DNA of 34,658 nt. Source: an uncultured Lachnospiraceae bacterium. GTDB lineage: Bacteria; Bacillota; Clostridia; Lachnospirales; Lachnospiraceae. The stretch spans positions 1 to 34,658 of the forward strand of contig CANQHZ010000035.1 in the NCBI GenBank assembly GCA_947623805.1, written 5' to 3'. The notes under the pieces were generated by a model. The model was not told where the DNA came from. It searched no databases and saw only the letters and a program-made list of their open reading frames with translations. Shown here piece by piece: positions 5,992 through 34,489 of the stretch (position 1 is the stretch's first letter; every line of letters starts with the position of its first letter). The translations under genes were made by a program, and so were the position numbers.

Positions 5992-7722
5992 TTATTCCAG
6001 CTCAAACATACTCGTATTCGACGAAAGGGTATCTGACATCTTAATAATCGTATCTACATCATTGCTGCACTCGGTAACAATATTTCTAAGCTCCTGCATA
6101 GATGCCGATGTTTCCTCCGTGCTCGCCGCATTCTCCTCGGAAAGAGTTGCAAGACTTTCAACCGCCTGTAGTACATTGTCCTTAAGGCTGTTGAGGTTTT
6201 CTACCTCTTTGCGAATATTGTCTACCGCGCCACCAACCTCATTTATCTCCATATTGAGGTTGCCAAATACTGTCTGGGTATTTTGCAGCTCAGCGCCTTG
6301 CTTGTCGATTACCTCTGTAACCTGTTTCATCGTGTCTACCGTGACATTGGAATTTTTGATAAGCAAATCTATAATGCCTGTAATGCGGCTTGCCGACTCC
6401 GCCGACTGGTCTGCCAGTTTCCTGATTTCATCAGCCACCACTGCAAAACCTCTGCCCTGCTCGCCTGCTCTGGCCGCCTCTATGCTGGCATTGAGTGAAA
6501 GTAAACTCGTCTGGTCCGCTATATCCGTGATGACATCCGCCGCCGACTGAATATCAAGTGCCGACCGATTTGTCATATTCGTCTGCTCATACACTACGTC
6601 AAACGCCTGTTTCGTCTCATTACTTATCTTGATAAGCTCTACAAGCGTCGCGTCTACACTCTTATTGTACTCACGCATCTTATCCGTATTGCCCACAAGC
6701 TGTTCGACATTCTGCGATGTGCTCTCTATGGCATTGCCCATACCCTGCACTTCCGTGCCGACATCCGCCGTGTTCTGCGCCTGCTGCGTAGAGCTGTATG
6801 CCATTTCCTCAACGGCGCGGTCAACATTCCCTATGTAATCTGTCATACTCCTGAACGAATCGGAGAAGTTGCCGGATATTCCCTCCAAATCGCCCGACGC
6901 GCTCTTGATATTATTGACAATCGTCGAAAGACTGCTGATAAGCTTATTCACGCTATGCGCTATATCACCGACTTCATCGGCACGCTGCAGAAGTTTTCCG
7001 TCAACACTGGTGTTAAGCTTGCCCTCCGCAACGCTGTTTAAGCTTGCGATAACGTTTACTATTACCGCGAGTATGCTCTTTATGCTGAAAATAGTCAATA
7101 TCACGCTGACTACAAGAATCGCAGCCACCACCACAAGGCTCAGCATAAGGTTCTGCGAATAAATTGCCGTTATGTTTGACTTGTCAAGTCCTACGAAAGT
7201 CATACCTATGATTTCATCAGCATTCTGCTGGTGCAACGGGCAATACATCGCGTAATACTCCTTGCCCGCGATAACTACATTGTCGGAATAATAATCCTGC
7301 CCTTCAACCACTACAGCCTGGTATATCGCAGGGTCTGCCGTCGTGCCAATCATACGGGTGCCCGTCTCGTCAACAAGGCTTGTCGCCATGCGCGTGTCTC
7401 CGTAAAATACAGTAACCTGCAGGTCTACCTCTTTACTGAAATTATCGAAAAAGTCTGTGTTGTCACTTATACTTTTCTTACCTTTGTAAAATTTGCCATT
7501 GTTGTACACATATGTACCGTTTGCCAGATTGCCTACCGACACTTCAAACGCATACTGCGCCGCGCTAAGCTCATGCTTTACCATAGCGTCTATAATGCTG
7601 GAGCTGAGTTTCTCCATTGAAATTACCGCTACAACCGACAGAAGAAGCATCGGAACAAGCGCCAATATCAACAGCCTCGGCATTAGTTTTAGTCCTTTTC
7701 TCTTTGTATTGCTCTCCTCCAT
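5992..7722 (-). CDS. Methyl-accepting chemotaxis protein (Cache-type), copy 1
   Basis: Transmembrane chemoreceptor that would signal to CheA/CheW. Domain order in the 576 residues: N-terminal membrane segment (about 15-35), extracellular single-Cache domain (about 40-185; [20 protein letters not shown] and the [11 protein letters not shown] region), second membrane segment (about 190-212), HAMP (about 213-265), long cytoplasmic coiled coil with the signalling tip [20 protein letters not shown] followed by [19 protein letters not shown]. It is a tandem paralogue of the gene at 7793-9526: signalling parts are almost identical, sensor parts less so. Ribosome site GCAGGGA. No CheR-binding pentapeptide at the C-terminus (ends FELE). 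Ligand unknown. Confidence 0.93.
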
Positions 7723-7792
7723 GAATATTCCCTGCCTTTCTATACAGACATTTAGAGCTAATAGTATACTTTTTATTATATTATGTGTAGTC

Positions 7793-9526
7793 CTATTCTA
7801 CCTCAAACATGCTCGTATTTGATGCGAGGGCATCTGACATCTTAATAATCGTATCTACATCATTGCTGCACTCGGTAACGATATTTCTAAGCTCCTGCAT
7901 AGAGGCTGAAGTCTCCTCCGTGCTTGCCGCGTTCTCCTCGGAAAGAGTGGCAAGGCTTTCAACCGCCTGAAGCACATTGTCTTTAAGGCCATTAAGATTT
8001 TCTACCTCCTTGCGGATGTTATCCACTGCCCCGCTGACCTCTTTTATCTCCATGTTGAGGTCATTGAATACTGACTTGGTATTCTGCAGCTCCATGCCCT
8101 GCTTATCAATTACCTCTGTAACCTGTTTCATCGTGTCTACCGTGACATTGGAATTTTTGATAAGTAAATCTATAATGCCTGTGATGCGGTTTGCCGACTC
8201 CGCCGACTGGTCTGCAAGCTTTCTGATTTCATCAGCCACTACCGCAAAACCCTTGCCTTGCTCGCCCGCTCTTGCCGCTTCTATGCTGGCATTGAGCGAA
8301 AGCAGGCTCGTCTGGTCCGCTATATCCGTGATGACATCTGCCGCTGACTGAATATCAAGCGCCGACCGATTTGTCATATTTGTCTGCTCATATACTACGT
8401 CAAATGCCTGTTTTGTCTCATTGCTTATCTTGATAAGCTCTACAAGCGTCGCGTCTACACTCCTGTTGTACTCGCGCATCTTATCCGTATTGCCTACAAG
8501 CTGTTCGACATTCTGCGATGTGCTCTCTATGGCATTCCCCATGCCCTGCACCTCTGTACCGACATCGGCGGTATTCTGCGCCTGCTGCGTAGAACTGTAT
8601 GCCATTTCCTCTACCGCGCTGTCAACATTTCCTATGTAATCTGTCATGCGTCCGAAAGATTCTGAGAAATTACTTGATATATTCTCCAAATCACCCGACG
8701 CGCCTTTAATGTTGTTGACTATGGTGGAAAGACTGCCTATAAGTTTATTTACGCTGTGCGCTATGTCACCGACTTCATCGGCACGCTGCAAAAGCTTTTC
8801 GTCCACGCTGATATTAAGCTTGCCCTCCGCAACGCTGTTTAAGCCGACGATGACATTTACTATTACCGAAAGTATACTCTTTACACTGAAAATAGTCAGC
8901 ACTACGCTCACTGCAAAAATCACCATCAGCACCACAAGACTTAGCATAAGGTTTTGCGAATATATCGATTTTATGTTTGACTTGTCAAGTCCCACAAAAG
9001 TCATTCCGATGATTTCATCTGTGTTTGGCTGGCATAGCGGACTGTACAGCGCATAATATTCTTTGCCCGCGATAACCACATCGTCGGAATAGTAATCCTG
9101 ACCGCCCGTTACTACGGTCTCATATATCTCCGGACTGGCTGTCGTGCCAATCATGCGCGTGCCGTCCTCATCAACAAGACTTGTCGCCACTCGAATATCG
9201 CCATAAAATATCGTGACCTGCAGGTCAACCTCCTGGCTGAAATCATCAAAGAAATCAGTGTTGTTGCTTATGTTTCTCTTGCCCTTATAGAAATTACCGC
9301 CGGCATATATATATGCGCCGTTTGACAGATTTTCTACCGATACTTCAAAAGCATACTGGGCAGCACTCAGCTCGTGTCTCACCATAGCCTCTATAATGCT
9401 GGTGCTCAACTTTTCCATTGAAATTACCGCTACAGCCGACAGAAGAAGCATCGGAACAAGTGCCAATATCAAAAGTCTTGGCAGCAGTTTTAGTCCTTTT
9501 CTTTTTGTATTATTATTTTCCCCCAT
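7793..9526 (-). CDS. Methyl-accepting chemotaxis protein (Cache-type), copy 2
   Basis: Chemoreceptor of 577 residues with the same order as its downstream neighbour: membrane segment, extracellular Cache domain (about 40-185), membrane segment, HAMP and MCP signalling domain with the tip [20 protein letters not shown]. Differences from copy 1 concentrate in the sensor (for example [16 protein letters not shown] against [16 protein letters not shown], and [12 protein letters not shown] against [12 protein letters not shown]), suggesting related but not identical ligands. AGGAGA precedes the ATG at 9526. Upstream sequence of both copies shares the block around GTATACTAT and AGCTCTA, so the duplication included regulatory DNA. 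Ligand unknown. Confidence 0.93.
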
Positions 9527-9613
9527 AAATATCTCCTGCCTTTCTATATGAACATATAGAGCTTATAGTATACTTTATATAGTAACATATTCTTTATTTT
9601 TTTACAACAATTT

Positions 9614-9641
9614 AATATAATGTATACACAATTTTGTGCAA
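9614..9641 (-). promoter_or_regulatory. Candidate promoter of chemoreceptor copy 2
   Basis: TTGCAC (9636-9641) and TATATT (9614-9619) on the minus strand are spaced by 16 bases, just downstream of the terminator of the third chemoreceptor. An alternative -10 (TATACT near 9570) lies closer to the gene and is also present upstream of copy 1. Confidence 0.4.
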
Positions 9642-9645
9642 TATG

Positions 9646-9679
9646 GCAAAAAGGCGCGAATTTTTTCGATTCACGCCTT
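9646..9679 (-). terminator. Terminator of the third chemoreceptor gene
   Basis: On the minus strand 9669-9679 pairs with 9651-9661 over 11 bp (one G-U pair in the minus transcript), followed by TTTTT at 9650-9646. It separates transcription of the third receptor from the tandem pair. Confidence 0.8.
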
Positions 9680-9695
9680 TTATTAGACCCTTATT

Positions 9696-11165
9696 TTATG
9701 AATTTTTAAGGTCCTGAGCCAATTCATATACCGCCTCAAATATCTGCTTGCACTTCTCAACCTCACTGACTGTGACATTGGAGTTTTCCAAGCCCTCGCT
9801 TGACGATGCGGCAACTTCCTCGCTTGTAGCCGAAAGCTGTGAAATGTGGTCGTATATATTGTTTGATGATTTGACAATCTGTTCGGTACCGCTGCGCACC
9901 TCGTCTATATTGCACGAAAGCGCTTTGACCTCGTCTGAAACTATCGCAAATTTTGCTTTCGTCTCGTCAATGAGTTCATTCTGCTTTGCGACTGAGCTTA
10001 CTGCGTTCTCTATGCTCTCGTTTGCGCGCTTTGTGTCCTCATTTAGCTCCTGAATGATATTTGTAATATTTGTGGACGCGTCTTTTGTATCCTCCGAAAG
10101 TTTCCTGATTTCTTCCGCTACTACCGAGAAACCTCTGCCCGCCTCGCCTGCTCTCGCCGCCTCTATGCTGGCGTTAAGCGCAAGGAGATTTGTCTGGCTC
10201 GAAATGCTTATGATTGAATCCACAAAGCTCTCCACCTTTTCAACTTTTTCAGTAAGCTCTGTGATAACCTCCTCCATAAGCTTACTGCTGCGGCTTACGT
10301 TGTCCGCCTGCTTGCCAAGCTCCTGAACCGACTGCACGCCGTCATGCACTGTGGCTGATACGCGCTGCGACGAATTTATCATCGCGCTTGTGAGCTCGCC
10401 CGCGTGCTCCGCCTGATTAAGTATCTCACCGCATATTTCAGCCTGACCTTGAATTGCCTCCGCCGTGCTCTCCGTGCTGCCTGCAATGTTTTCTATTGAG
10501 GTATGGCTGTTGCCAAGGCTCTCCCTGAGTGTCTCAAACATTTCCATGGCCTCACCAAAGTGCTTGATGATGTTTTCAGCGACAGTAACCATTATTTCAT
10601 TGCTCTGCTTCTGTTTCTCAGCTGCCTCCATAATTGTGTCTGTATTCTCGTGATTGAATTTGACAAGCAGCGACGTAATCCTGATTGACGAGTACGCTAC
10701 AAGTATGCATATGAAAATGTTTACCACCATCGTCGAGCCTATAGGCTGCGAGCCTGAAACAAGCTCAATGAGCATACGTATTATGTTTGCGCCAAGTATT
10801 ACTGAATTGCCCGCTATGATAATGCGTTTGTTGAGATATGCCATTGCCGCAAAAAGGATAGGAAGTGCATACATGCATGTGTCCTCTGTAGTGCCTACAA
10901 GCCTTACGATTATGTACACACATGATGCTGCCGCCAGCATACACCTTGCACATAGCATAGTTTCACGTTTCATAATGAATAGCACAACTATGGCAATCAG
11001 CGCAACCAGCGAAGCTATCAGCTGCAGATAAGATTTCCATGATATAGCGGCTTTATCCGCTGTGCCCAGGAATGCCACAAGCGATAAAAAAATATAGCCT
11101 ACAATAACAATGAGCACGGGAAATACTACTCCGTTTGCACGTTTTAATTGATTGTCCGTCATCAT
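9696..11165 (-). CDS. Methyl-accepting chemotaxis protein with polytopic N-terminus
   Basis: A 489-residue receptor of a different design from its neighbours. Residues about 12-185 are hydrophobic and contain five or six membrane segments with almost no extracytoplasmic loop, in place of a periplasmic sensor. Residues about 200-489 are an MCP signalling domain with the tip [20 protein letters not shown] and [19 protein letters not shown]; no HAMP is evident. Such receptors may sense a membrane or energy signal; that is inference. Two adjacent ATGs (11165, 11162) follow AAGAAGGG. It has its own terminator, so it is likely expressed separately from the tandem receptors. Confidence 0.88.
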
Positions 11166-17828: not shown

Positions 17829-17878
17829 AAAATATTTTGACTAAATTCGTCCAGTTGAGAAAGCATTTCGCAGTTACC
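17829..17878 (+). repeat. Remnant of the ~90-bp palindromic repeat family (copy E)
   Basis: TATTTTGACTAAATTC at 17833-17848 matches the right arm of the palindromes at 31551 and 34254. The similarity continues past the arm: CAGTT-AG-A...CATTTCGCA here (17852-17871) resembles the sequence right of copy A (31660-31680). The left arm is absent, so this is a decayed or partial copy, sitting between nifS and nifU. Confidence 0.6.
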
Positions 17879-24114: not shown

Positions 24115-25059
24115 TCAAACCGTCTGTTTGTCAAATTTTTCCAGATACCCCTGAGCCTTTTGAAGTGATGTGCCAAGCTGTGCCTGAAGCTGTTTTATAA
24201 TTTCACTGTCTGGCAGCCCAAGGTCATAGCCCATTTTAATGATGCCCTTCATAACACCTTGCTCTATTCCCTTTTCTATTCCCTTATCATATATAGTCTG
24301 CCCCATTCCGCTCATCTTATCGACCTCCTCTCGGATTTGCGGGTTCCTGTCCATATCTATGTATTTCTGGATATTCTCTTTATCAGACGCAAATACCGCA
24401 TTTAAATATTTAAATATGTCACAATCGGTAGTTTTGTTTCCACGCCTTATTATCACCACTTCCATTAAATCATAGTTTTCTTCTGGCTCGTCTGTATGCC
24501 CTATCACGTCTTCCTTTACAAAATGATACCTTGTCACGGTGTTTTGCAGCTTTTCAGGTATATTTTCATTGCAAACCCATATGCTGTAGGCTTTTTCTAG
24601 CCGATTATAATCTGTCGTTTCCGTGAGTATGCCAAGCTGTGACGAGACTTCCCTCGCCACATAGTATGTACCGCGTTTCGTTATCGGGTATCTTACATTA
24701 TAATCGTTATGTACTTCAAAATTTATGTGCAGCATTATGCAAATCATCTCATTTGAAAGCTTCGGATTTTTTGCCTTAAAGCGGCAGTCATAATAAATTG
24801 TCTTATCTGTAGGCGAAGTCATTTCCGTACCCGCGCTATTTATCCGTGGCGGCAAGTCGCTCACTGTATCTGACAGGCTTATCGAGTCCGCATCTATCAG
24901 CGCAATTATCTCATCATTCGTACAGTCCTTAAATTCCGCAACTACCTCCTTCAAAATCGGCGCGATAGCCTCACGATACCTGAAAAACGCCTTGCACATC
25001 GCGTCGTACTTCTGCCTGCCGTCCATTGTGTCTATAAGCTGTATTATTTCCTCGTTCAT
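24115..25059 (-). CDS. Rpn-like PD-(D/E)XK nuclease/'transposase' family protein, copy 1
   Basis: Member of the Rpn/PD-(D/E)XK putative transposase group, whose studied members are endonucleases that promote RecA-independent recombination. Over 314 residues the core is visible as D91 (TIYYDCRF) and E115 in INFEVHND, followed by YPITKRGTYYVAREVSSQLG; the usual Gln/Lys after the Glu is His117 here, so catalysis is uncertain. The tail carries the family's YDKGIEKGIEQG repeats, then MKGIIKMGYDLGLPDSEIIK. The first about 270 residues are nearly identical to copy 2 at 29642-30580, but the tail is unrelated. The ATG at 25059 is preferred over the preceding TTG. The stop is 14 bp before the DUF4132 start, with its own promoter upstream. 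Confidence 0.82.
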   Translation of the reverse strand: MNEEIIQLIDTMDGRQKYDAMCKAFFRYREAIAPILKEVVAEFKDCTNDEIIALIDADSISLSDTVSDLPPRINSAGTEMTSPTDKTIYYDCRFKAKNPKLSNEMICIMLHINFEVHNDYNVRYPITKRGTYYVAREVSSQLGILTETTDYNRLEKAYSIWVCNENIPEKLQNTVTRYHFVKEDVIGHTDEPEENYDLMEVVIIRRGNKTTDCDIFKYLNAVFASDKENIQKYIDMDRNPQIREEVDKMSGMGQTIYDKGIEKGIEQGVMKGIIKMGYDLGLPDSEIIKQLQAQLGTSLQKAQGYLEKFDKQTV

Positions 25060-25087
25060 CAATTAAATTATGCCTTTCCGTAATTTT

Positions 25088-25116
25088 AATATATCATCTA
25101 TATGCGGGGATTTCAA
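25088..25116 (-). promoter_or_regulatory. Promoter of Rpn copy 1
   Basis: TTGAAA (25111-25116), 17-base spacer, TATATT (25088-25093) with TG-a immediately upstream of the -10, on the minus strand. The same promoter is conserved upstream of copy 2. Confidence 0.65.
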
Positions 25117-25195
25117 GATTATAAAGTTAAGCTTTCTGCCTTTATTTATATGCCTTTGAAATACAAGATGAATATGATTTGTTAGAAAATTTTAT

Positions 25196-25237
25196 GAAAA
25201 TATGGCACTCACATTTTGATTTATGCAAGTGCCATAT
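25196..25237 (-). terminator. Hairpin/terminator upstream of Rpn copy 1
   Basis: ATATGGCACT (25200-25209) pairs perfectly with AGTGCCATAT (25228-25237). On the minus strand the stem is followed by TTTTCATAAAATTTT, so it should stop transcription arriving from the upstream DUF4132 unit. It is part of the duplicated cassette. Confidence 0.55.
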
Positions 25238-25291
25238 CAGAATAACATAAATATAAAGAAATGTAAACCCAAATGTAAAAAATAGAACAAA

Positions 25292-25465
25292 CAATATGCT
25301 TTTCATCAGCTTATTCAACATTTATTAATCACTTTAATCAGCACTCCTACGCCAGTCAAACCACTTATTGCTATCCATTGTACAAAAGAAAAATAAACTT
25401 CCTCAACACAAAAAATCCTCTCCAAACCCAACCAACAATAAACACCAAAACCATTCCAACACTCA
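25292..25465. other. Non-coding interval between Rpn cassette and structured element
   Basis: Part of the 829-bp gene-free stretch 25060-25888. From 25057 to 25291 it holds the duplicated Rpn 5' region; 25292-25465 is AT-rich with no reading frame, promoter or repeat that I can support; 25466-25689 is the structured element; 25690-25888 holds terminator sequences. Confidence 0.5.
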
Positions 25466-25689
25466 GAAGGCAGCTAATATACTGTCAAGCGCCTAGACCG
25501 CAAAAGCCGAATTTTCTTATGTGGGGCAAGATAACCTAGGGGCAAAATTGGCACGGACGCCAATTTTAGCCGAGCGGCGACACGGATGTCGCCTCTCGGC
25601 GGCCCCGCCGCCCTAGAACATCTATAAGCCCCGCATTAGAAAATTCGGCTTTCGCGGACTCGCGCGCAGACAGTATATTAGCTGCCTTC
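25466..25689. repeat. 224-bp multi-hairpin element with perfect 21-bp terminal inverted repeats
   Basis: The left end (25466-25486) is the exact reverse complement of the right end (25669-25689). Inward, 25498-25527 pairs with about 25629-25658 with only three mismatches, then AGAT/ATCT and CTAGGG/CCCTAG pairs close a junction. Inside are three hairpins: AAAATTGGC/GCCAATTTT, GGCGAC/GTCGCC flanked by CCGAG/CTCGG, and CGGC/GCCG. The first two have loops ACGGAC and ACGGAT. The interior is strikingly GC-rich against AT-rich flanks. It encodes no transposase. It could be a non-autonomous mobile element (MITE-like) or a structured RNA; sequence alone does not decide, and no clear target-site duplication is seen. 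Confidence 0.85.
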
Positions 25690-25813
25690 GTCCTCATTAG
25701 AATACCCCAGCCTCACCAAGCCCCCATTAAGCAACACCGAAAAACGCCGCCCTTTGCACACTCAATAGATATCACTGGCAAAACGCACCCTACACACTTA
25801 TTAAAGACAACCG

Positions 25814-25867
25814 AAAAAACGCCACCCTTACGTTTCTTATAAACATTAAGAAACACTCAAACGGCGT
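25814..25867 (-). terminator. Terminator of the long DUF4132 gene
   Basis: On the minus strand ACGCC (25867-25863) pairs with GGCGT (25823-25819) followed by a T run; inside it GTTTCTTA/TAAGAAAC (25832-25839 with 25847-25854) forms an 8-bp hairpin. A similar downstream stretch, GGGCGGCGTTTTT with CGGTG, recurs near 25735-25752, as if the terminator tail had been duplicated. Confidence 0.6.
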
Positions 25868-25888
25868 ATTTTACCGCCCTAAAGCTTC

Positions 25889-28800
25889 TTAATGATTTTT
25901 CCAGTTATCATCCCTCTCCTCACTAGCCGCCGTAGCCTTTTCAAGCTGCAGCACAATCTCACTAAAATACCTCTGCGGCACATCCTTCAGCGGAACAATC
26001 TTATCCCCTTCCGCCTCATCATAACAATAACTCCCGCGCTCAATAGTCCCCGCCTTATAAAACCTCGCATCATACACAGTTATATCCTCGCCGCCATCAT
26101 ACCCCGAACCTACAAAGCTCCCCGAAAAATGCAGCTCCACGCCAAGCCCCGTTTCCACATCCTCTCGGTAAAAAGTATAAAAACCTCCCGCATCCTGCAC
26201 AGAACCGCGATACCACCCCAGTCCCGTAAGCTTGCCAGTCAGCGACAAATCATTTAATATACACCCGCCAAACCGCTCTAATGTCGGCATATCCTTCTCA
26301 GCATCTTCCAGCCTGTAAACCGCCCTGTCAAGCTGCTCTATCGGCTGCTTTATCTCATAATCCTCAAGCTGCTGCTTCCAGTTGGAAAGTGACACATCCG
26401 TCATTTCTATCGGATGCACAAGAGCAATTTTTACACCGCTTTCCTCTGGCAGCTCATACTCCTCCTCATCCTCCGTATTGAAAGTGCCGTCCTCCATATA
26501 CCTGAAACTCTGCACAAGCTCCCCATTATCATAAACTCCCCAAACAAGCCCAATCGCAAACTGGTGCATTATCGGATTTTTCACAAACAGCGCCTTCCAA
26601 GCCTCCGATGTCCACTCGCGTTTCGCAATAAGCGCATACTCCAGGCGCGACTTCTGGCTCGTTATAGCCGCCTTCATCTGTTTTTTCATTTCCTTAAATT
26701 CACCAATCGCTGCAGACGCCTTTTCCTCGTCGTCCTTCTTGCCAACTGCTGGAAGATTTTTAAGCTTTTTGCCCGTCTCGTCAAATACCTCAATTTCAAG
26801 CGCGGGAGTTATCGCTACCTTGAATTTCCTCTCGCCGTAGTCAAAAATCCGCTCCATATTTTCATCAAATCCAAGGTCTGGCACAATCCTGTCCGCAAGC
26901 TCCTCGCGCGTGATGCCAAGCTGCCCCGCGGCGTACTCCATAGCCTCTCCCGCCGCCGCTTTCACCTGTTTAAACTTGTACTTTCTTGACATACTGTCAA
27001 CCGCAAGCAGCGCACTCGGAGCGGGATTCAGCACAAGCGCCTTGACAGCTTCGGCGGCTATCGCGCCCCTCGCGTTCTGCGCCCACTCTCCGATTTGGCG
27101 CACAAGCCTGTCCGCTATGGCGCTGCCGCCGTGGATCGATGCCGCATAAAGCACCCAGCGTTTCTTTGCCTCCGCGCCTGCCGCAAACCATTTTTCATAA
27201 AGCTCACTGACATATACGGCAAACTCGTCCTCGTTAAGACTCTCCGCAAGCATTGCAGCGTTTGCATTTATCCCGTTTTTCTCAGCAGACGAATAGCACA
27301 AAAGTATCGCCTGCAGATATTCTTCGTCTGCCACCGTGCCGTCTTTTTTGTGCACCGCGCTAAACGGAGTCTGGTACGCCCATTCAAGCGAACGCTTTTT
27401 GCCTCCCTTATGCATCACCTGCACAAGCTCACTTGCCTCAACCGCATTGGCAGCGCCCTGTCCGTCTCCTGCGGCTGTGATTGTCAGGGAATTTTGCAGA
27501 AGCGACGCCATCTTAGCGTTTTTCTCCTTTTCAAGCGCCGCCTTAAACAGCTCACTGTAGTCTTTTCCCTCGCTCTGCCACTTTCCAAGCACGCGGACAG
27601 CGATTTCGCGCTCGCCCGCCTTTTTCGCCGACATAAGCTTTATGATATCATCCTCCCAGCCATGCTGTTTATAGAGTATTTCCAGCAGCCTCTCTTTTAC
27701 CGCCTTTGCGCTCTCTTTTGCAAGGGCAAGGATTTCCGCCTTGTTTTCTTCGGCATTAATGCTCATGATGTCAAGGCTGAATACCTTCCCTTCAGTGCCT
27801 GCGTCGTCAAACGCCGCCATTGTTTCTTCCCTGTTCTGCGACAGATATTTTGCAAAAATCGGCGCTCCCGCCTTATGAAATGCCGCATATTCGGATCCCC
27901 AATTTGTGCCTGTCATATACTCCGCCATGCAGCAGAATGTCAAAAACTGGTGCTTTATTTTCACGCCCTCCTGCTCAAAAACGCCAAAAAGCCGCCTGAC
28001 ATCCTCATCAATGGTATTCCCTGTCCGTTCTCTCATTAATTCCTGTACCAGATATCCTCCGCCGCCTCTCACTGCCATTGCGGCATCCCATCTGCGCACA
28101 TATTCATCACTGCCGTAAATCCGCTTGTATCCTGACACTTCTCTAATATATGTGTCTGCTGTCCAATCATCACCATCATAAAGCGTATAGTCCAGCTTGT
28201 AGAACTCGGACAGCGGCGTCTTTCCTAAAATATAATCCAGAATCACAGCTTTTTCATTATCGGGCATTGCGGAGAAATGCATCATAATATCCCGCTTTGT
28301 GGTAATTATGGCATCCTTTTTTACCCCGTCCTTTGTGCGTTCCGCGATTATCTCATCAAACAGCGCGGGATCATTTTCCTTGGCGCACGCTATCATAGAG
28401 TTTACCTCTTGTCTGCCGTATATGCGGTCGTCAATGCCATTGCGTATAACCTCGCAATAAGCCTCCCTGTTCTTCACCATCTGCCTTTTGAGGATTTTCT
28501 CCGCTCCACTGTGCTTGATATTCTCCTTTGCCGCCCATGTTATGTAATCCACCGCATTTATGTTGAATATCTCATCAAAATCAGCGCCTATCTTTGTGAT
28601 TGCGTTATTCATATCTTCGCTCACAAATCTAATTGCTTTGAGCGCATCGTCCGTGAACATTGCGATATGGATTTTGATTACATTCCTGAGTACCTGTGAC
28701 AGAGGAAAATTGATGTAGGCAGGTTTTGTTACCTCGCTTATTGCTTCTCGGCAGGTTTTTGATACGCTGCTGCCTAGTCTGCGCGCATTGATGCGCGGCC

Positions 28801-29542
28801 GTATTCTTTCAAGGCTGCTGTCAAAATCTTCATTACCCACTGCCTTGATAAGCTCGAAAGCAGGCGGTATTTCGGTTTCTACCGCAGCTTCAAACGCATA
28901 TATGATAAGGTTTTCATATTCCTTTAAATATGGCAAATCGTCTTTCTCTATTTCAATATCAGGGTTTTTATAGTCGGCATTGCCGCTGTCGATAAATGCG
29001 TTGGTGTATTTTTTCTTAAAATATAGCGCAAGCAGCAAAAGCTTTGCCCTTGGCGAGTCCTCATGATACTGCATAGCTTTGAGCAGCGCATCATTGCTGT
29101 AGTTACCGTACTCTAATTGATTTATATGATGGCTGCCTATAGGAAAGCGCTGTTCTATATAATGCGCCGCCATTATCGCCAAGTATTTGCACTGCGCGTC
29201 TTTCGTAAACCACTGCCCTGCATTAATATTGCCTGCAAAAGTGCGCAGCGCATTATCGCATGTCGCTTTGCCAAGCGCAAACAGGACATCCGTAAATCTG
29301 CGCACGGTTTCCTTTCCGCCGTTAAAATATAGTAAAGGTCCGTACGACATTGTCGAAAAGCCTATTGACTTTATTTTCAAAAAGTTTCTGTAGTTAAGCT
29401 GTGATAGCGTCTCCTCGTCCGCATCTCCCATAAGGTAGTTCTCCACTATCGCCGCCTCGTCCTGCGTGAGATTGAGCGGGGCAAGCCTTGAAAGCATCTC
29501 CTGCACCAAAGCTCCATCCTGCTGTGTTCCGTTCCGCTGCAT
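25889..29542 (-). CDS. DUF4132-domain protein (full-length, 1217 aa)
   Basis: Long paralogue, close in length to E. coli YehI (about 1210 residues), of a family linked to MoxR-AAA+/VWA/SWIM loci. Molecular role unknown. N-terminal 400 residues are helical and start with LTQDEAAIVENYLMGDADEETLSQLNY; a related unit recurs near residue 430 (MPDNEKAVILDYILGKTPLSEFYKLDY), where alignment with the short paralogue begins, suggesting an internal repeat. The shared region has KRSLEWAYQTPFSAVHKKDGT, GFDENMERIFDYGERKFKVA and the DUF4132 C-terminal core NPIMHQFAIGLVWG to GLGWYRGSVQDAGGFYTFYR. No membrane segments or signal. The ATG at 29542 follows GGAGG. It lies 99 bp downstream of Rpn copy 2 and ends at a hairpin terminator. 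Confidence 0.85.
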   Translation of the reverse strand: MQRNGTQQDGALVQEMLSRLAPLNLTQDEAAIVENYLMGDADEETLSQLNYRNFLKIKSIGFSTMSYGPLLYFNGGKETVRRFTDVLFALGKATCDNALRTFAGNINAGQWFTKDAQCKYLAIMAAHYIEQRFPIGSHHINQLEYGNYSNDALLKAMQYHEDSPRAKLLLLALYFKKKYTNAFIDSGNADYKNPDIEIEKDDLPYLKEYENLIIYAFEAAVETEIPPAFELIKAVGNEDFDSSLERIRPRINARRLGSSVSKTCREAISEVTKPAYINFPLSQVLRNVIKIHIAMFTDDALKAIRFVSEDMNNAITKIGADFDEIFNINAVDYITWAAKENIKHSGAEKILKRQMVKNREAYCEVIRNGIDDRIYGRQEVNSMIACAKENDPALFDEIIAERTKDGVKKDAIITTKRDIMMHFSAMPDNEKAVILDYILGKTPLSEFYKLDYTLYDGDDWTADTYIREVSGYKRIYGSDEYVRRWDAAMAVRGGGGYLVQELMRERTGNTIDEDVRRLFGVFEQEGVKIKHQFLTFCCMAEYMTGTNWGSEYAAFHKAGAPIFAKYLSQNREETMAAFDDAGTEGKVFSLDIMSINAEENKAEILALAKESAKAVKERLLEILYKQHGWEDDIIKLMSAKKAGEREIAVRVLGKWQSEGKDYSELFKAALEKEKNAKMASLLQNSLTITAAGDGQGAANAVEASELVQVMHKGGKKRSLEWAYQTPFSAVHKKDGTVADEEYLQAILLCYSSAEKNGINANAAMLAESLNEDEFAVYVSELYEKWFAAGAEAKKRWVLYAASIHGGSAIADRLVRQIGEWAQNARGAIAAEAVKALVLNPAPSALLAVDSMSRKYKFKQVKAAAGEAMEYAAGQLGITREELADRIVPDLGFDENMERIFDYGERKFKVAITPALEIEVFDETGKKLKNLPAVGKKDDEEKASAAIGEFKEMKKQMKAAITSQKSRLEYALIAKREWTSEAWKALFVKNPIMHQFAIGLVWGVYDNGELVQSFRYMEDGTFNTEDEEEYELPEESGVKIALVHPIEMTDVSLSNWKQQLEDYEIKQPIEQLDRAVYRLEDAEKDMPTLERFGGCILNDLSLTGKLTGLGWYRGSVQDAGGFYTFYREDVETGLGVELHFSGSFVGSGYDGGEDITVYDARFYKAGTIERGSYCYDEAEGDKIVPLKDVPQRYFSEIVLQLEKATAASEERDDNWKNH

Positions 29543-29641: not shown

Positions 29642-30580
29642 CTACATTTTACCAGCATACATCATATAATATTCCTCCGCCTTCTCCCTCGTAATACTGA
29701 AAAGCTTCTGGAGTTTATCTATGCTGCGCTCTTTGGGAATATGCTCCTCTATGTTGTCAAGTATAAGCGCTCTAACGCCCTGCTCTATTCCTTGCTGTAT
29801 TCCCCTGTCATATATAGTCTGTCCCATTCCGCTCATCTTATCGACCTCCTCTCGGATTTGCGTGTTCCTGTCCATGTCTATGTATTTCTGGATATTCTCC
29901 TTATCAGACGCAAATACCGCATTTAAATATTTGAATATGTCACAATCGGTAGTTTTGTTTCCACGCCTTATTATCACTACTTCCATTAAATCATAGTTTT
30001 CTTCTGGCTCGTCTGTATGCCCTATCATGTCTTCCTTTACAAAATGATACCTTGTCACAGTGTTTTGCAGCTTTTCAGGTATGTTTTCATTGCAAACCCA
30101 TATGCTGTAAGCTTTTTCCAGCCGATTATAATCTGTCGTTTCCGTGAGTATGCCAAGCTGTGACGAAACTTCCCTTGCCACATAATATGTACCGCGTTTC
30201 GTTATCGGGTATCTTACATTATAATCGTTATGTACCTCAAAATTTATGTGCAGCATTATGCAAATCATTTCATTTGAAAGCTTCGGATTTTTTGCCTTAA
30301 AGCGGCAGTCATAATAAATCGTCTTATCAGCAGGCGAAGTCATCTCCGTACCAGCGCTTTTTATACGCGGCGGCAAGTCGCTCACCGTATCTGACAGGCT
30401 TATCGAATCCGCGTCTATCAGCGCAATTATCTCATCATTCGTGCAATCCTTAAATTCAGCGACGACCTCCTTCAAAATCGGCGCTATAGCCTCACGGTAC
30501 CTGAAAAACGCCTTGCACATCGCGTCATACTTCTGCCTGCCGTCCATTGTGTCTATAAGCTGTATTATTTCCTCGTTCAT
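29642..30580 (-). CDS. Rpn-like PD-(D/E)XK nuclease/'transposase' family protein, copy 2
   Basis: Twin of the gene at 24115-25059. Over residues 1 to about 270 only a handful of changes are seen (for example RIKSA for RINSA, SPADK for SPTDK, EDMIGH for EDVIGH, RNTQIR for RNPQIR). The catalytic-core residues D91, E115 and the following His are the same. After YDRGIQQGIEQGV the protein ends in a different 40-residue tail (ILDNIEEHIPKERSIDKLQ, then LFSITREKAEEYYMMYAGKM). Such tails in Rpn-type proteins are known to vary between paralogues; the role here is unknown. The ATG at 30580 is preferred over the preceding TTG. It is followed after 99 bp by the long DUF4132 gene. Confidence 0.82.
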   Translation of the reverse strand: MNEEIIQLIDTMDGRQKYDAMCKAFFRYREAIAPILKEVVAEFKDCTNDEIIALIDADSISLSDTVSDLPPRIKSAGTEMTSPADKTIYYDCRFKAKNPKLSNEMICIMLHINFEVHNDYNVRYPITKRGTYYVAREVSSQLGILTETTDYNRLEKAYSIWVCNENIPEKLQNTVTRYHFVKEDMIGHTDEPEENYDLMEVVIIRRGNKTTDCDIFKYLNAVFASDKENIQKYIDMDRNTQIREEVDKMSGMGQTIYDRGIQQGIEQGVRALILDNIEEHIPKERSIDKLQKLFSITREKAEEYYMMYAGKM

Positions 30581-30608
30581 CAATTAAATTATGCCTTTCC
30601 GTAATTTT

Positions 30609-30637
30609 AATATATCATCTATATGCGGGGATTTCAA
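30609..30637 (-). promoter_or_regulatory. Promoter of Rpn copy 2
   Basis: TTGAAA (30632-30637), 17-base spacer, TATATT (30609-30614) with an upstream TG, identical to the copy 1 promoter. Confidence 0.65.
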
Positions 30638-30715
30638 GATTATAAAGTTAAGCTTTCTGCCTTTATTTATATGCCTTTGAAATACAAGATGAATATGATT
30701 GTCAGAAAATTTTAT

Positions 30716-30757
30716 AAAAATATGGCACTCGCATTTTAATTTATGCAAGCGCCATAT
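30716..30757 (-). terminator. Hairpin/terminator upstream of Rpn copy 2
   Basis: 30720-30729 pairs with 30748-30757 (one mismatch compared with the perfect stem of copy 1). A TTTTTATAAAATTTT tract follows on the minus strand, so it probably terminates the phosphoesterase transcript. Confidence 0.55.
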
Positions 30758-30875
30758 CAGAATAACATAGATATAAAGAAATGTAAACTCAAATGTAAAA
30801 AATAGAACAAAAATAAAACAAAAAACAGAACAAATAAACAACCCTTCATCGCACATCTCTCGCAAAGCCACACTA

Positions 30876-31547: not shown

Positions 31548-31680
31548 ATAGAATTTAGGCAAAATATGTAAAATGAGCGGCGTCTCACGGAGCGTTTATG
31601 TACTATATCTGTGATACAGTACATTGACGTGATTTTTATATATTTTGACTAAATTCAGACAGTTTAGGACACATTTCGCA
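31548..31680 (+). repeat. ~90-bp palindromic repeat family, copy A
   Basis: The left arm (GAATTTAGGCAAAATATGTA, from 31551) pairs with the right arm ending AAATTC at 31656, with two or three mismatches. Between them this copy has an extra 10-bp hairpin (31600-31609 with 31613-31622, one mismatch, TGT loop) absent from the others. The segment right of the arm (31660-31680, CATTTCGCA) recurs next to remnant E. It occupies most of the gap between the phosphoesterase and the small protein. Confidence 0.75.
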
Positions 31681-31681
31681 A

Positions 31682-32044
31682 CTACTTATAATTACGGGCT
31701 TGGTCATTTAACGCTTCATTAAAATAATATCCCGCTGTCCTGTCATATGTAATTTTTTCCCTGCATATGTAAAGATATTCCTGCAAATCCGCATACACCC
31801 GCGCCAAATCGTCTGCCTCCGCTTTGGTTCTGTGCCGCCGCGCTCCAATTCCTTCAATCAGACTTCCAAGCAAATGTGACAGATGTGTCATTCCATATTG
31901 CATACACAGACTCTTAATGGAATCAAGCTCCTCCAGCGTGCTGTCATGCACTGTGTCAAACCCGCTCTGAAACAAATCCTCAAGCTGCTCCTGAACGTCA
32001 GCCACAAGCTCCTCCAGCGCCTCCTCCTTATCATTAAATGCCAT
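31682..32044 (-). CDS. Small helical protein, 120 aa, coupled to the SWIM gene
   Basis: Not recognised. The frame is open from 32068, but the ATG at 32044 (MAFNDKEEALEEL) is chosen because GAGGAG lies just upstream and the gene then overlaps the SWIM stop by 11 bp, the pattern of translational coupling. The protein looks entirely helical and acidic at its N-terminus (EEALEELVADVQEQLEDLF), with a middle HLSHLLGSLIEGIGARRHRT and an aromatic-rich C-terminal helix (YADLQEYLYICREKITYD). No membrane segment or catalytic motif. Coupling suggests a stoichiometric partner of the SWIM protein; that is inference. Confidence 0.75.
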   Translation of the reverse strand: MAFNDKEEALEELVADVQEQLEDLFQSGFDTVHDSTLEELDSIKSLCMQYGMTHLSHLLGSLIEGIGARRHRTKAEADDLARVYADLQEYLYICREKITYDRTAGYYFNEALNDQARNYK

Positions 32045-33999: not shown

Positions 34000-34088
34000 T
34001 CCTAATTTGTGCGAAATATACAAAAACGTAACTAAACACTCCACAAAACGTCGCTTATTTTTCATATTTCACTCAAATTCTATGTCAC
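34000..34088 (-). repeat. ~90-bp palindromic repeat family, copy D (reverse orientation)
   Basis: The left arm AATTTGTGCGAAATATACAA (from 34004) pairs with the right arm ending CACTCAAATTC at 34080, with about four mismatches. Read on the minus strand it aligns along its length with copy C, including the AAGCGACG block and the TTTTTGTATATTTC right arm. Confidence 0.7.
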
Positions 34089-34247
34089 AAAATAAAATTT
34101 CACAAACACTTAAATGAAACTCCCCACAGCAGAGCTGCGGGATATCAGCCCGAAACTCCCTCCGCCCGTCATTAGCTTGTTACGCAGCAGAGCTACGAGA
34201 AATTTACTCTGAGATATAAAATCCATTCCCACAAATCCCAATCCAAT

Positions 34248-34340
34248 AACGTAGAATTTAGTCAAAATATATAAAATCAGCGACGTTTCGCATCGCGCAC
34301 CAAGTCGCGATTTTATATATTTTGACTAAATTCGGACTCC
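34248..34340 (+). repeat. ~90-bp palindromic repeat family, copy B (perfect arms)
   Basis: A perfect 25-bp inverted repeat: 34254-34278 (beginning GAATTTAGTCAAAATATA) with 34309-34333. GCGAC (34280-34284) and GTCGC (34304-34308) extend the stem after a one-base bulge, leaving a loop of 19 bases. Confidence 0.85.
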
Positions 34341-34384
34341 TTAAAAAGCCTCCGCAACAGCCATATTATTTTCAGCAATATCCA

Positions 34385-34476
34385 ACTACGTAGAATTTGG
34401 GTGAAATATACAAAATAAGCGACGATTTGCGAAGCACCTAGTCGCGTTTTTGTATATTTCACACAAATTCGACCTC
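34385..34476 (+). repeat. ~90-bp palindromic repeat family, copy C
   Basis: The left arm GAATTTGGGTGAAATATACA (34393 onward) pairs with the right arm 34448-34470 over 23 bp with one mismatch, and GCGAC/GTCGC (34419-34423 with 34441-34445) extends it. Compared with copy B several arm positions have changed on both sides so that pairing is kept. Confidence 0.85.
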
Positions 34477-34489
34477 CTTAAAAAACCTT

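Follow-up and report, generated by a model that had tools for sequence, protein, structure and literature searches.

A TwoAYGGAY element of Lachnospiraceae as a candidate non-autonomous mobile hairpin with a putative two-site CsrA-binding core

CsrB is a single gene with many CsrA sites. It is placed together with the TwoAYGGAY family in the Rfam clan CL00106 (CsrB as RF00018, TwoAYGGAY as RF01731). Bacterial MITEs are short, contain no internal gene, end in terminal inverted repeats and are flanked by target duplications. Integron attC sites are palindromes in which the arms vary and the unpaired features are strand-specific. Transposons of the IS66 family have GTAA ends and make an 8-bp target duplication.

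The type given for RF01731 in Rfam is 'Cis-reg'. In the passages of Weinberg et al. 2010 that treat the motif, it is described from human gut, gamma-Proteobacteria and Clostridiales and is considered probably RNA, neither cis-regulatory nor a riboswitch (PMC2864571). Gardner et al. 2014, in the passages concerned, list TwoAYGGAY as a family of unknown function and propose that its loops bind CsrA (PMC4333381). Further covarying pairs in its helices appear in passages of the Rfam 15 (PMC11701678) and CaCoFold (PMC7657543) papers, and a passage of a preprint calls it "relatively unexplored" (PMC11661157). A CsrA site is described, in part of a 2020 paper, as short hairpins exposing ANGGA, and the same text states that no antagonist sRNA had been identified in species that use FliW, Bacillus subtilis among them (PMC7366521). 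Mobility is not mentioned in the passages on TwoAYGGAY or RF01731 that were covered. Those of PMC2864571 and PMC4333381 hold nothing on terminal repeats, target duplications, copy-number range or close inverted pairs, nor on csrA co-occurrence or scarcity of wobble pairs. The literature covered holds nothing on point for CsrA together with miniature inverted repeats, two subjects that the passages concerned treat separately, nor for such repeats in Lachnospiraceae. Relative to these passages, the present comparison suggests as new a dispersed mobile-type repeat, covariation nearly without wobble pairs, and CsrA-type loops combined with csrA co-occurrence.

The element was found in a contig of an uncultured Lachnospiraceae bacterium (CANQHZ010000035.1, assembly GCA_947623805.1). 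The whole 34,658-nucleotide stretch that was analysed is called the window. The original prediction described a 224-bp cloverleaf with perfect 21-bp ends, a near-perfect 30-bp inner stem, two further helices and three enclosed hairpins, two of them with ACGGAY loops. All of these parts are present:

25466-25689, plus strand (the strand with the AYGGAY loops): whole hairpin element, arms and core, defined by its fold, its arms and its multiple copies in its own genome
25494-25661, plus strand: match to RF01731 TwoAYGGAY, model positions 1-168 of 168, 88.4 bits
25466-25486: left outer arm, a perfect 21-bp complement of the right outer arm at 25669-25689
25498-25527 and 25628-25657: inner arms, 28 of 30 positions paired
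25529-25532 and 25620-25623: helix AGAT/ATCT
25536-25541 and 25611-25616: helix CTAGGG/CCCTAG
25544-25567, plus strand: hairpin 1, 9-bp stem, loop ACGGAC at 25553-25558 with C-G closing pair, putative CsrA-type site
25569-25600, plus strand: hairpin 2, loop ACGGAT at 25582-25587, putative CsrA-type site
25601-25609: third hairpin, 3 bp
25690-25693, plus strand: GTCC immediately outside the right arm, the same in 6 of 13 copies of this genome and also found in units of G411, another genome of the genus

The predicted rise in GC content is also seen, with 54.5% in the element against 30.8% in the 224 bases to the left and 42.9% in the 224 bases to the right. The plus-strand RNA folds at -141.7 kcal/mol (z -16.7) and the minus-strand RNA at -148.4 kcal/mol (z -14.7), and none of 200 shuffles was as low on either strand. 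The cloverleaf structure is real, and a fold of this stability lies far outside what chance gives for either strand. Among the listed ORFs of at least 80 aa, none overlaps 25466-25689. The loop ACGGAC is complementary to GTCCGT at the right end, which recalls the guide-to-cleavage pairing of IS200/IS605.

The match to RF01731 is full-length and well above the gathering cut-off (88.4 bits against 43, E 3.7e-14), and the element has the two AYGGAY-loop hairpins of the family. With Rfam TwoAYGGAY it therefore shares the full-length match, the two loops and the occurrence in Clostridia; the proposal of a two-site CsrA ligand is already published. A MITE-like mobile element and a structured non-coding RNA had been offered as alternatives, and each holds in part, as the sequence belongs to a catalogued RNA family and the family behaves in a MITE-like way. 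The reading that we favor by a little, taken as one joint statement, is a non-autonomous mobile hairpin of the MITE type with a conserved core that forms a putative two-site CsrA-binding hairpin. Its bases are dispersal, a patchy and variable copy number, fixed ends with 8-bp duplications in a genome of the same genus, presence and absence at matching sites, almost purely Watson-Crick covariation, a conserved loop with its closing pair, and csrA co-occurrence. A transposase acting on the ends would spread the element. The plus-strand RNA, when made, would offer a two-site clamp to a CsrA dimer, bind it and compete for CsrA.

The element is dispersed. Its own genome (3.96 Mb, 229 contigs) contains 13 full matches over the model cut-off, and blastn adds three further copies that are cut off at contig ends. 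It is thus neither single-copy nor free of covariation, as an alignment of 43 cores shows compensatory change at 31 of its 32 predicted pairs. In the family, the model search gave matches in 65 of 397 genomes, a survey in which six candidates were scored per genome and carriers may be missed. In the genus, 12 of 38 genomes carry the element and 26 have none. The carriers hold at least 54 (G411), 43, 19, 16, 13, 13, 9, 6, 6, 3, 2 and 1 copies; the first value is a lower bound, since all 54 scored candidates of G411 matched. None of 14 control genomes had a match over the cut-off. The 224 bp matched nothing in a phage collection or a plasmid collection, and an origin from phage or plasmid was rejected on this ground.

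The clearest signs of mobility come from G411. Here seven pair-units align, and the homology stops at inverted ends GTAACAGTTCAGCC. This 14-mer occurs at 289 places in G411 with at most one mismatch, and its reversed control at 0. In the loci examined, 22 distinct elements of less than 700 bp have facing GTAACAGTTCAGCC ends with no more than two mismatches. Eight of the 22 are flanked by an exact direct repeat of 8 bp, against 0.34 in shuffled pairings; with at most one mismatch allowed, the 8-bp duplication is found at 12, the 8 exact ones included, against 0.49. Duplication lengths of 5, 6, 7, 9 and 10 were seen at one element at most. The TwoAYGGAY core is present by model match in 16 of the 22, of which 4 have exact duplications and 3 have duplications with 7 of 8 positions equal, and the other six (79 to 200 bp) are without core. 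A different hairpin MITE of 136 bp in G411 (for example L146 1187-1322 and L238 1379-1514) also has ends GTAACAGTTCAGCC and exact 8-bp duplications, so that several types of MITE use one and the same end.

Outside G411 the duplications are weak. In a scan at arm ends, exact 9-mers were found in 3 of 187 cases against 0.1 expected, which is suggestive, and in the element's own clade exact 8-mers at 6 of 23 against 1.6 expected. This general scan is weak, and its matches of even length are confounded by the palindromic arms. No clear target duplication flanks the window copy. The copy lies at the same place in the relatives G428 and G429 and is therefore not recent, and its own movement is not seen. 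A comparison with the close relatives G428, G429 and G430 brought out presence and absence differences at several sites, and no exact empty site. By model, G428 has no copy at the C139 site, where the flanks align and 164 unrelated bases replace 272, and G430 has none at the junction of the flanks that border C34 and C104 here. G429 has the C15 pair, which is missing from G428, where the homology of the flank stops. None of G428, G429 and G430 has a copy at C37, and in G428 and G429 just an arm-like remnant is left there. G429 has an arrangement of copy, about 4.6 kb and copy (L178, L177), and in the window's genome (L014) a single copy joins the outer flanks; recombination between copies likely accounts for this pair of arrangements.

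No transposase recurs behind the 77 of about 289 GTAACAGTTCAGCC ends of G411 that were examined. The transposase-family search covered IS66, which was rejected as partner since 10 of the 12 carriers in the genus, G411 included, lack its transposase. C12 of G411, with 2.7 kb between facing ends, was also rejected as an autonomous element. Read by eye, none of its ORFs resembles a transposase; they look like genes for a phosphatase, an aminotransferase and a GntR-type regulator. The window copy without clear duplication, the weak duplications outside G411 and the lack of an end-sharing transposase among the G411 ends examined all weigh against the mobility half of the favored reading. That the family is mobile is nevertheless highly probable, with support through one relative, G411.

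The ends themselves differ between copies. In G411 the terminal repeats GTAACAGTTCAGCC are shared, while the outer arms of the window's genome fall into several groups, one common to C25 and C172 and another to C34 and C104. The two arms of any one copy in this genome are almost perfectly complementary, and 9 of 13 have an exact GAAR start and YTTC end. Copies from other genera (113) have yet other arms, which are often longer. The centre is thus kept and the arms are variable. The original prediction proposed to look for a transposase that shares the 21-bp ends; these are not a fixed transposase signature of the family, and no transposase with matching ends was found in the part of G411 examined. 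At up to 3 mismatches GAAGGCAGCTAATATACTG occurs at just 5 places, the two arms of the window copy and the three contig-end copies, whose arm sequence differs from the window's by one mismatch. Other arms are found in the majority of the 13 full copies. A centre conserved over many genera, with arms and ends that vary between and within genomes, differs from bacterial MITEs, with which the element has its short length and lack of an internal gene in common and, in G411, also the shared terminal inverted repeats and the target duplication. With attC sites it shares the palindrome, the variable arms and the strand-specific unpaired features; no array is seen here, and G411 has the 8-bp target duplication instead.

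Copies often occur in close pairs. Among 162 of 171 copy-holding loci (L126-L134 left out, 5 duplicate loci dropped), 29 neighbouring pairs lie within 1.5 kb, and 26 of the 29 are in minus-then-plus order. These pairs are not independent, because several G411 pairs (gaps 102-103 bp) are one multiplied unit. In seven neighbouring pairs with gaps above 250 bp, translated and inspected by eye, no recurrent gene lies between the copies, and a carried partner gene was rejected.

The loops of the core and their closing pairs are strongly conserved. In 115 copies from other genera, hairpin 1 keeps the C-G closing pair in 115 and a GGA loop in 103, and hairpin 2 keeps them in 105 and 106, respectively. 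In 77 copies of the own genus the GGA loop is found in 72 (hairpin 1) and 77 (hairpin 2). Among the GGA copies, the strict ANGGAN form is present in 82 and 60 copies of the other genera for hairpins 1 and 2, and in 60 and 76 of the own genus. Most other stem pairs swap freely, unlike the closing C-G pairs. The result is mostly C(ANGGAN)G hairpins, two per copy, about 30 nt apart, which corresponds to the CsrA site of PMC7366521. The SELEX consensus of CsrA is ACARGGAUGU, and the loops of the element agree with it. Judged from sequence, the two hairpins look like a binding site for one CsrA dimer. Hairpins exposing ANGGA and the Rfam clan are common to the element and the CsrB-type sRNAs. The element differs in having two sites per copy, many dispersed copies and no promoter seen, and it is known here from sequence.

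CsrA (PF02599) occurs in 210 of 397 family genomes, in 62 of 65 carriers and 148 of 332 non-carriers (odds ratio 25.7, p 4e-16, with kinship ignored). The carriers without a CsrA match are G168, G319 and G358. Within the genus there is no csrA signal, with 12 of 12 carriers against 23 of 26 others. As CsrA is present in 35 of 38 genus genomes, its absence provides no argument there against a CsrA sponge. G411, the richest carrier, has a single divergent CsrA (57 bits). An association that ignores kinship, the missing genus signal, the three carriers without CsrA, the divergent CsrA of G411 and the lack of a promoter-like site on the plus strand speak against the CsrA half of the favored reading. 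The csrA gene is multiplied in the clade, with 5 matches in the window's genome and 7, 8 and 4 in G428, G429 and G430, against 0 to 3 in the remaining 34 genomes of the genus; four of the G428 matches are on one contig. If the CsrA link is real, the family would point to RNA partners of CsrA in Clostridia.

The two CsrA-type hairpins, the CsrB clan and the csrA co-occurrence would equally suit an ordinary gene for a CsrA-sponge small RNA, as proposed by Gardner et al. 2014, that was multiplied by duplication; the mobile ends seen in one relative would then be secondary. We regard such a gene as improbable. Between 0 and at least 54 copies per genus genome, copies at contig ends and target duplications are traits of transposons, the helices lack wobble pairs, and the plus strand has no promoter- or terminator-like site in 25050-25950.

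The base pairs of the core vary almost entirely within Watson-Crick types. In the 115 distinct copies from other genera, aligned to the model, 95.5% of 3,623 cells are Watson-Crick, with 33 G-U (0.9%), 37 A-C (1.0%) and 95 other pairs (2.6%), and at 29 of the 32 paired positions at least three Watson-Crick types occur. The 77 own-genus copies are 96.5% Watson-Crick, with 19 G-U, 5 A-C and 53 other pairs. In the 43-row MAFFT alignment the value is 88.6%, with 36 G-U, 30 A-C and 90 other pairs. Control RNAs behave differently. In SRP RNA of 30 genomes of the family, folded and counted with the same script, there are 214 G-U pairs (22.3%) and 1 A-C (0.1%), and 13 tRNAs in the loci (ARAGORN structures) have 19 G-U and 0 A-C. 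In the arms of 126 copies there are 343 G-U and 362 A-C mismatches, in a loose alignment from which single genomes deviate, such as G176 with 51 G-U to 7 A-C. The three orthologues of the window copy, compared by eye, show one-sided changes of both kinds. G-U pairs are tolerated in RNA helices and A-C pairs are not. The rarity of both here argues for upkeep in the form of double-stranded or hairpin DNA. The near lack of wobble pairs suggests that the palindrome is maintained at the DNA level, and scarce wobble pairs, which selection on RNA folding does not predict, speak against the RNA half of the favored reading. The palindrome may be kept perfect as a cruciform, or by hairpin-templated repair during the mobility cycle. 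In a family carried by a transposon with such covariation, covariation alone is no proof of RNA.

The same counts raise the possibility that the element acts as DNA alone. It would then be a MITE that requires its hairpin in DNA form, as a cruciform or single-stranded intermediate, with loops that serve as recombinase contacts and an RNA label that is an artefact of palindrome covariation. The about equal rarity of G-U and A-C, the diversity of Watson-Crick types, the contrast with SRP RNA and tRNAs, the arm mismatches and the target duplications all agree with it. A DNA-only element would not lead one to expect csrA co-occurrence, or a sequence matching the CsrA site that is held fixed on one strand in the loop and its C-G closing pair. 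The surplus of G-U over A-C in the own genus (19 to 5, p 0.007) also disagrees with it and speaks against a complete absence of RNA-type constraint. On balance we think a DNA-only element unlikely, though a serious competitor to the mobile hairpin with a CsrA-binding core. An extension of the latter is about as unlikely. A transposon family may spread predicted CsrA docking sites through Clostridia, where copy number would set CsrA titration and the control of neighbouring transcripts and a DNA-level mobility step would keep the hairpins. Each insertion would then add a two-site CsrA clamp, and genomes would differ from 0 to more than 50 copies.

The surroundings of the window copy include the following:

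24115-25062, minus strand: neighbour gene, not part of the element, no Pfam match, TIGR01784 (Rpn) at 17.4 bits with a cut-off of 52.1
25879-25859, minus strand: terminator-like site of the DUF4132 gene, between gene and element
25889-29542, minus strand: DUF4132 gene, its 3' end facing the element
29642-30583: duplicate of the 24115-25062 gene, weak Rpn match (TIGR01784, 16.2 bits)

The original prediction placed the element between two Rpn-DUF4132 units. The DUF4132 gene was confirmed; the Rpn similarity is weak and below the cut-off. By tblastn at 1e-5, the window is the only one of 13 own-genome loci with an Rpn-like or DUF4132 gene within 1.5 kb, and no such gene was found at 12 loci of G428 and G429 or at 138 other loci examined. 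A link of the element to these genes was rejected, with three further G428/G429 copies, outside the tblastn set, standing against the rejection as they adjoin Rpn-like paralogues. The position between DUF4132 units looks mostly incidental.

Both neighbours are on the minus strand, and in 25050-25950 promoter-like sites occur on this strand only. The plus strand has neither a promoter-like nor a terminator-like site there. Of 124 copies with a gene called on the right (3' side, Rfam strand), 77 have this gene directed into the element, as do 9 of 11 in the window's genome, by simple ORF calls. This orientation would fit a giant 3'-end hairpin, a terminator or stabiliser, made on the opposite strand for the gene to the right, as would the minus-then-plus order of 26 of 29 close pairs, expected between convergent genes. 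Such a role appears very improbable. The right-hand gene of the window already has its own terminator-like site, the sole one in 25050-25950, and none is called at the element. The minus-strand loops read RTCCRT and would offer no CsrA-type site. Harmless insertions, too, commonly lie at the 3' ends of genes.

Other repeats were observed in the window. A 1,045-bp duplication with 95% identity (24252-25296 and 29773-30815) comprises most of the Rpn-like gene and its upstream region. More stretches similar to it occur in the same genome and in G428 and G429, and three in these relatives adjoin a TwoAYGGAY copy. Another inverted-repeat family (GAATTTAGTCAAAATATATAAAA and relatives) has several copies, at 34004-34488, 17832-17877 and 31634-31685 of the window. 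Three adjacent ORFs of 489 to 577 aa on the minus strand (5992-11165) have repeated stretches in common, with 82-86% identity.
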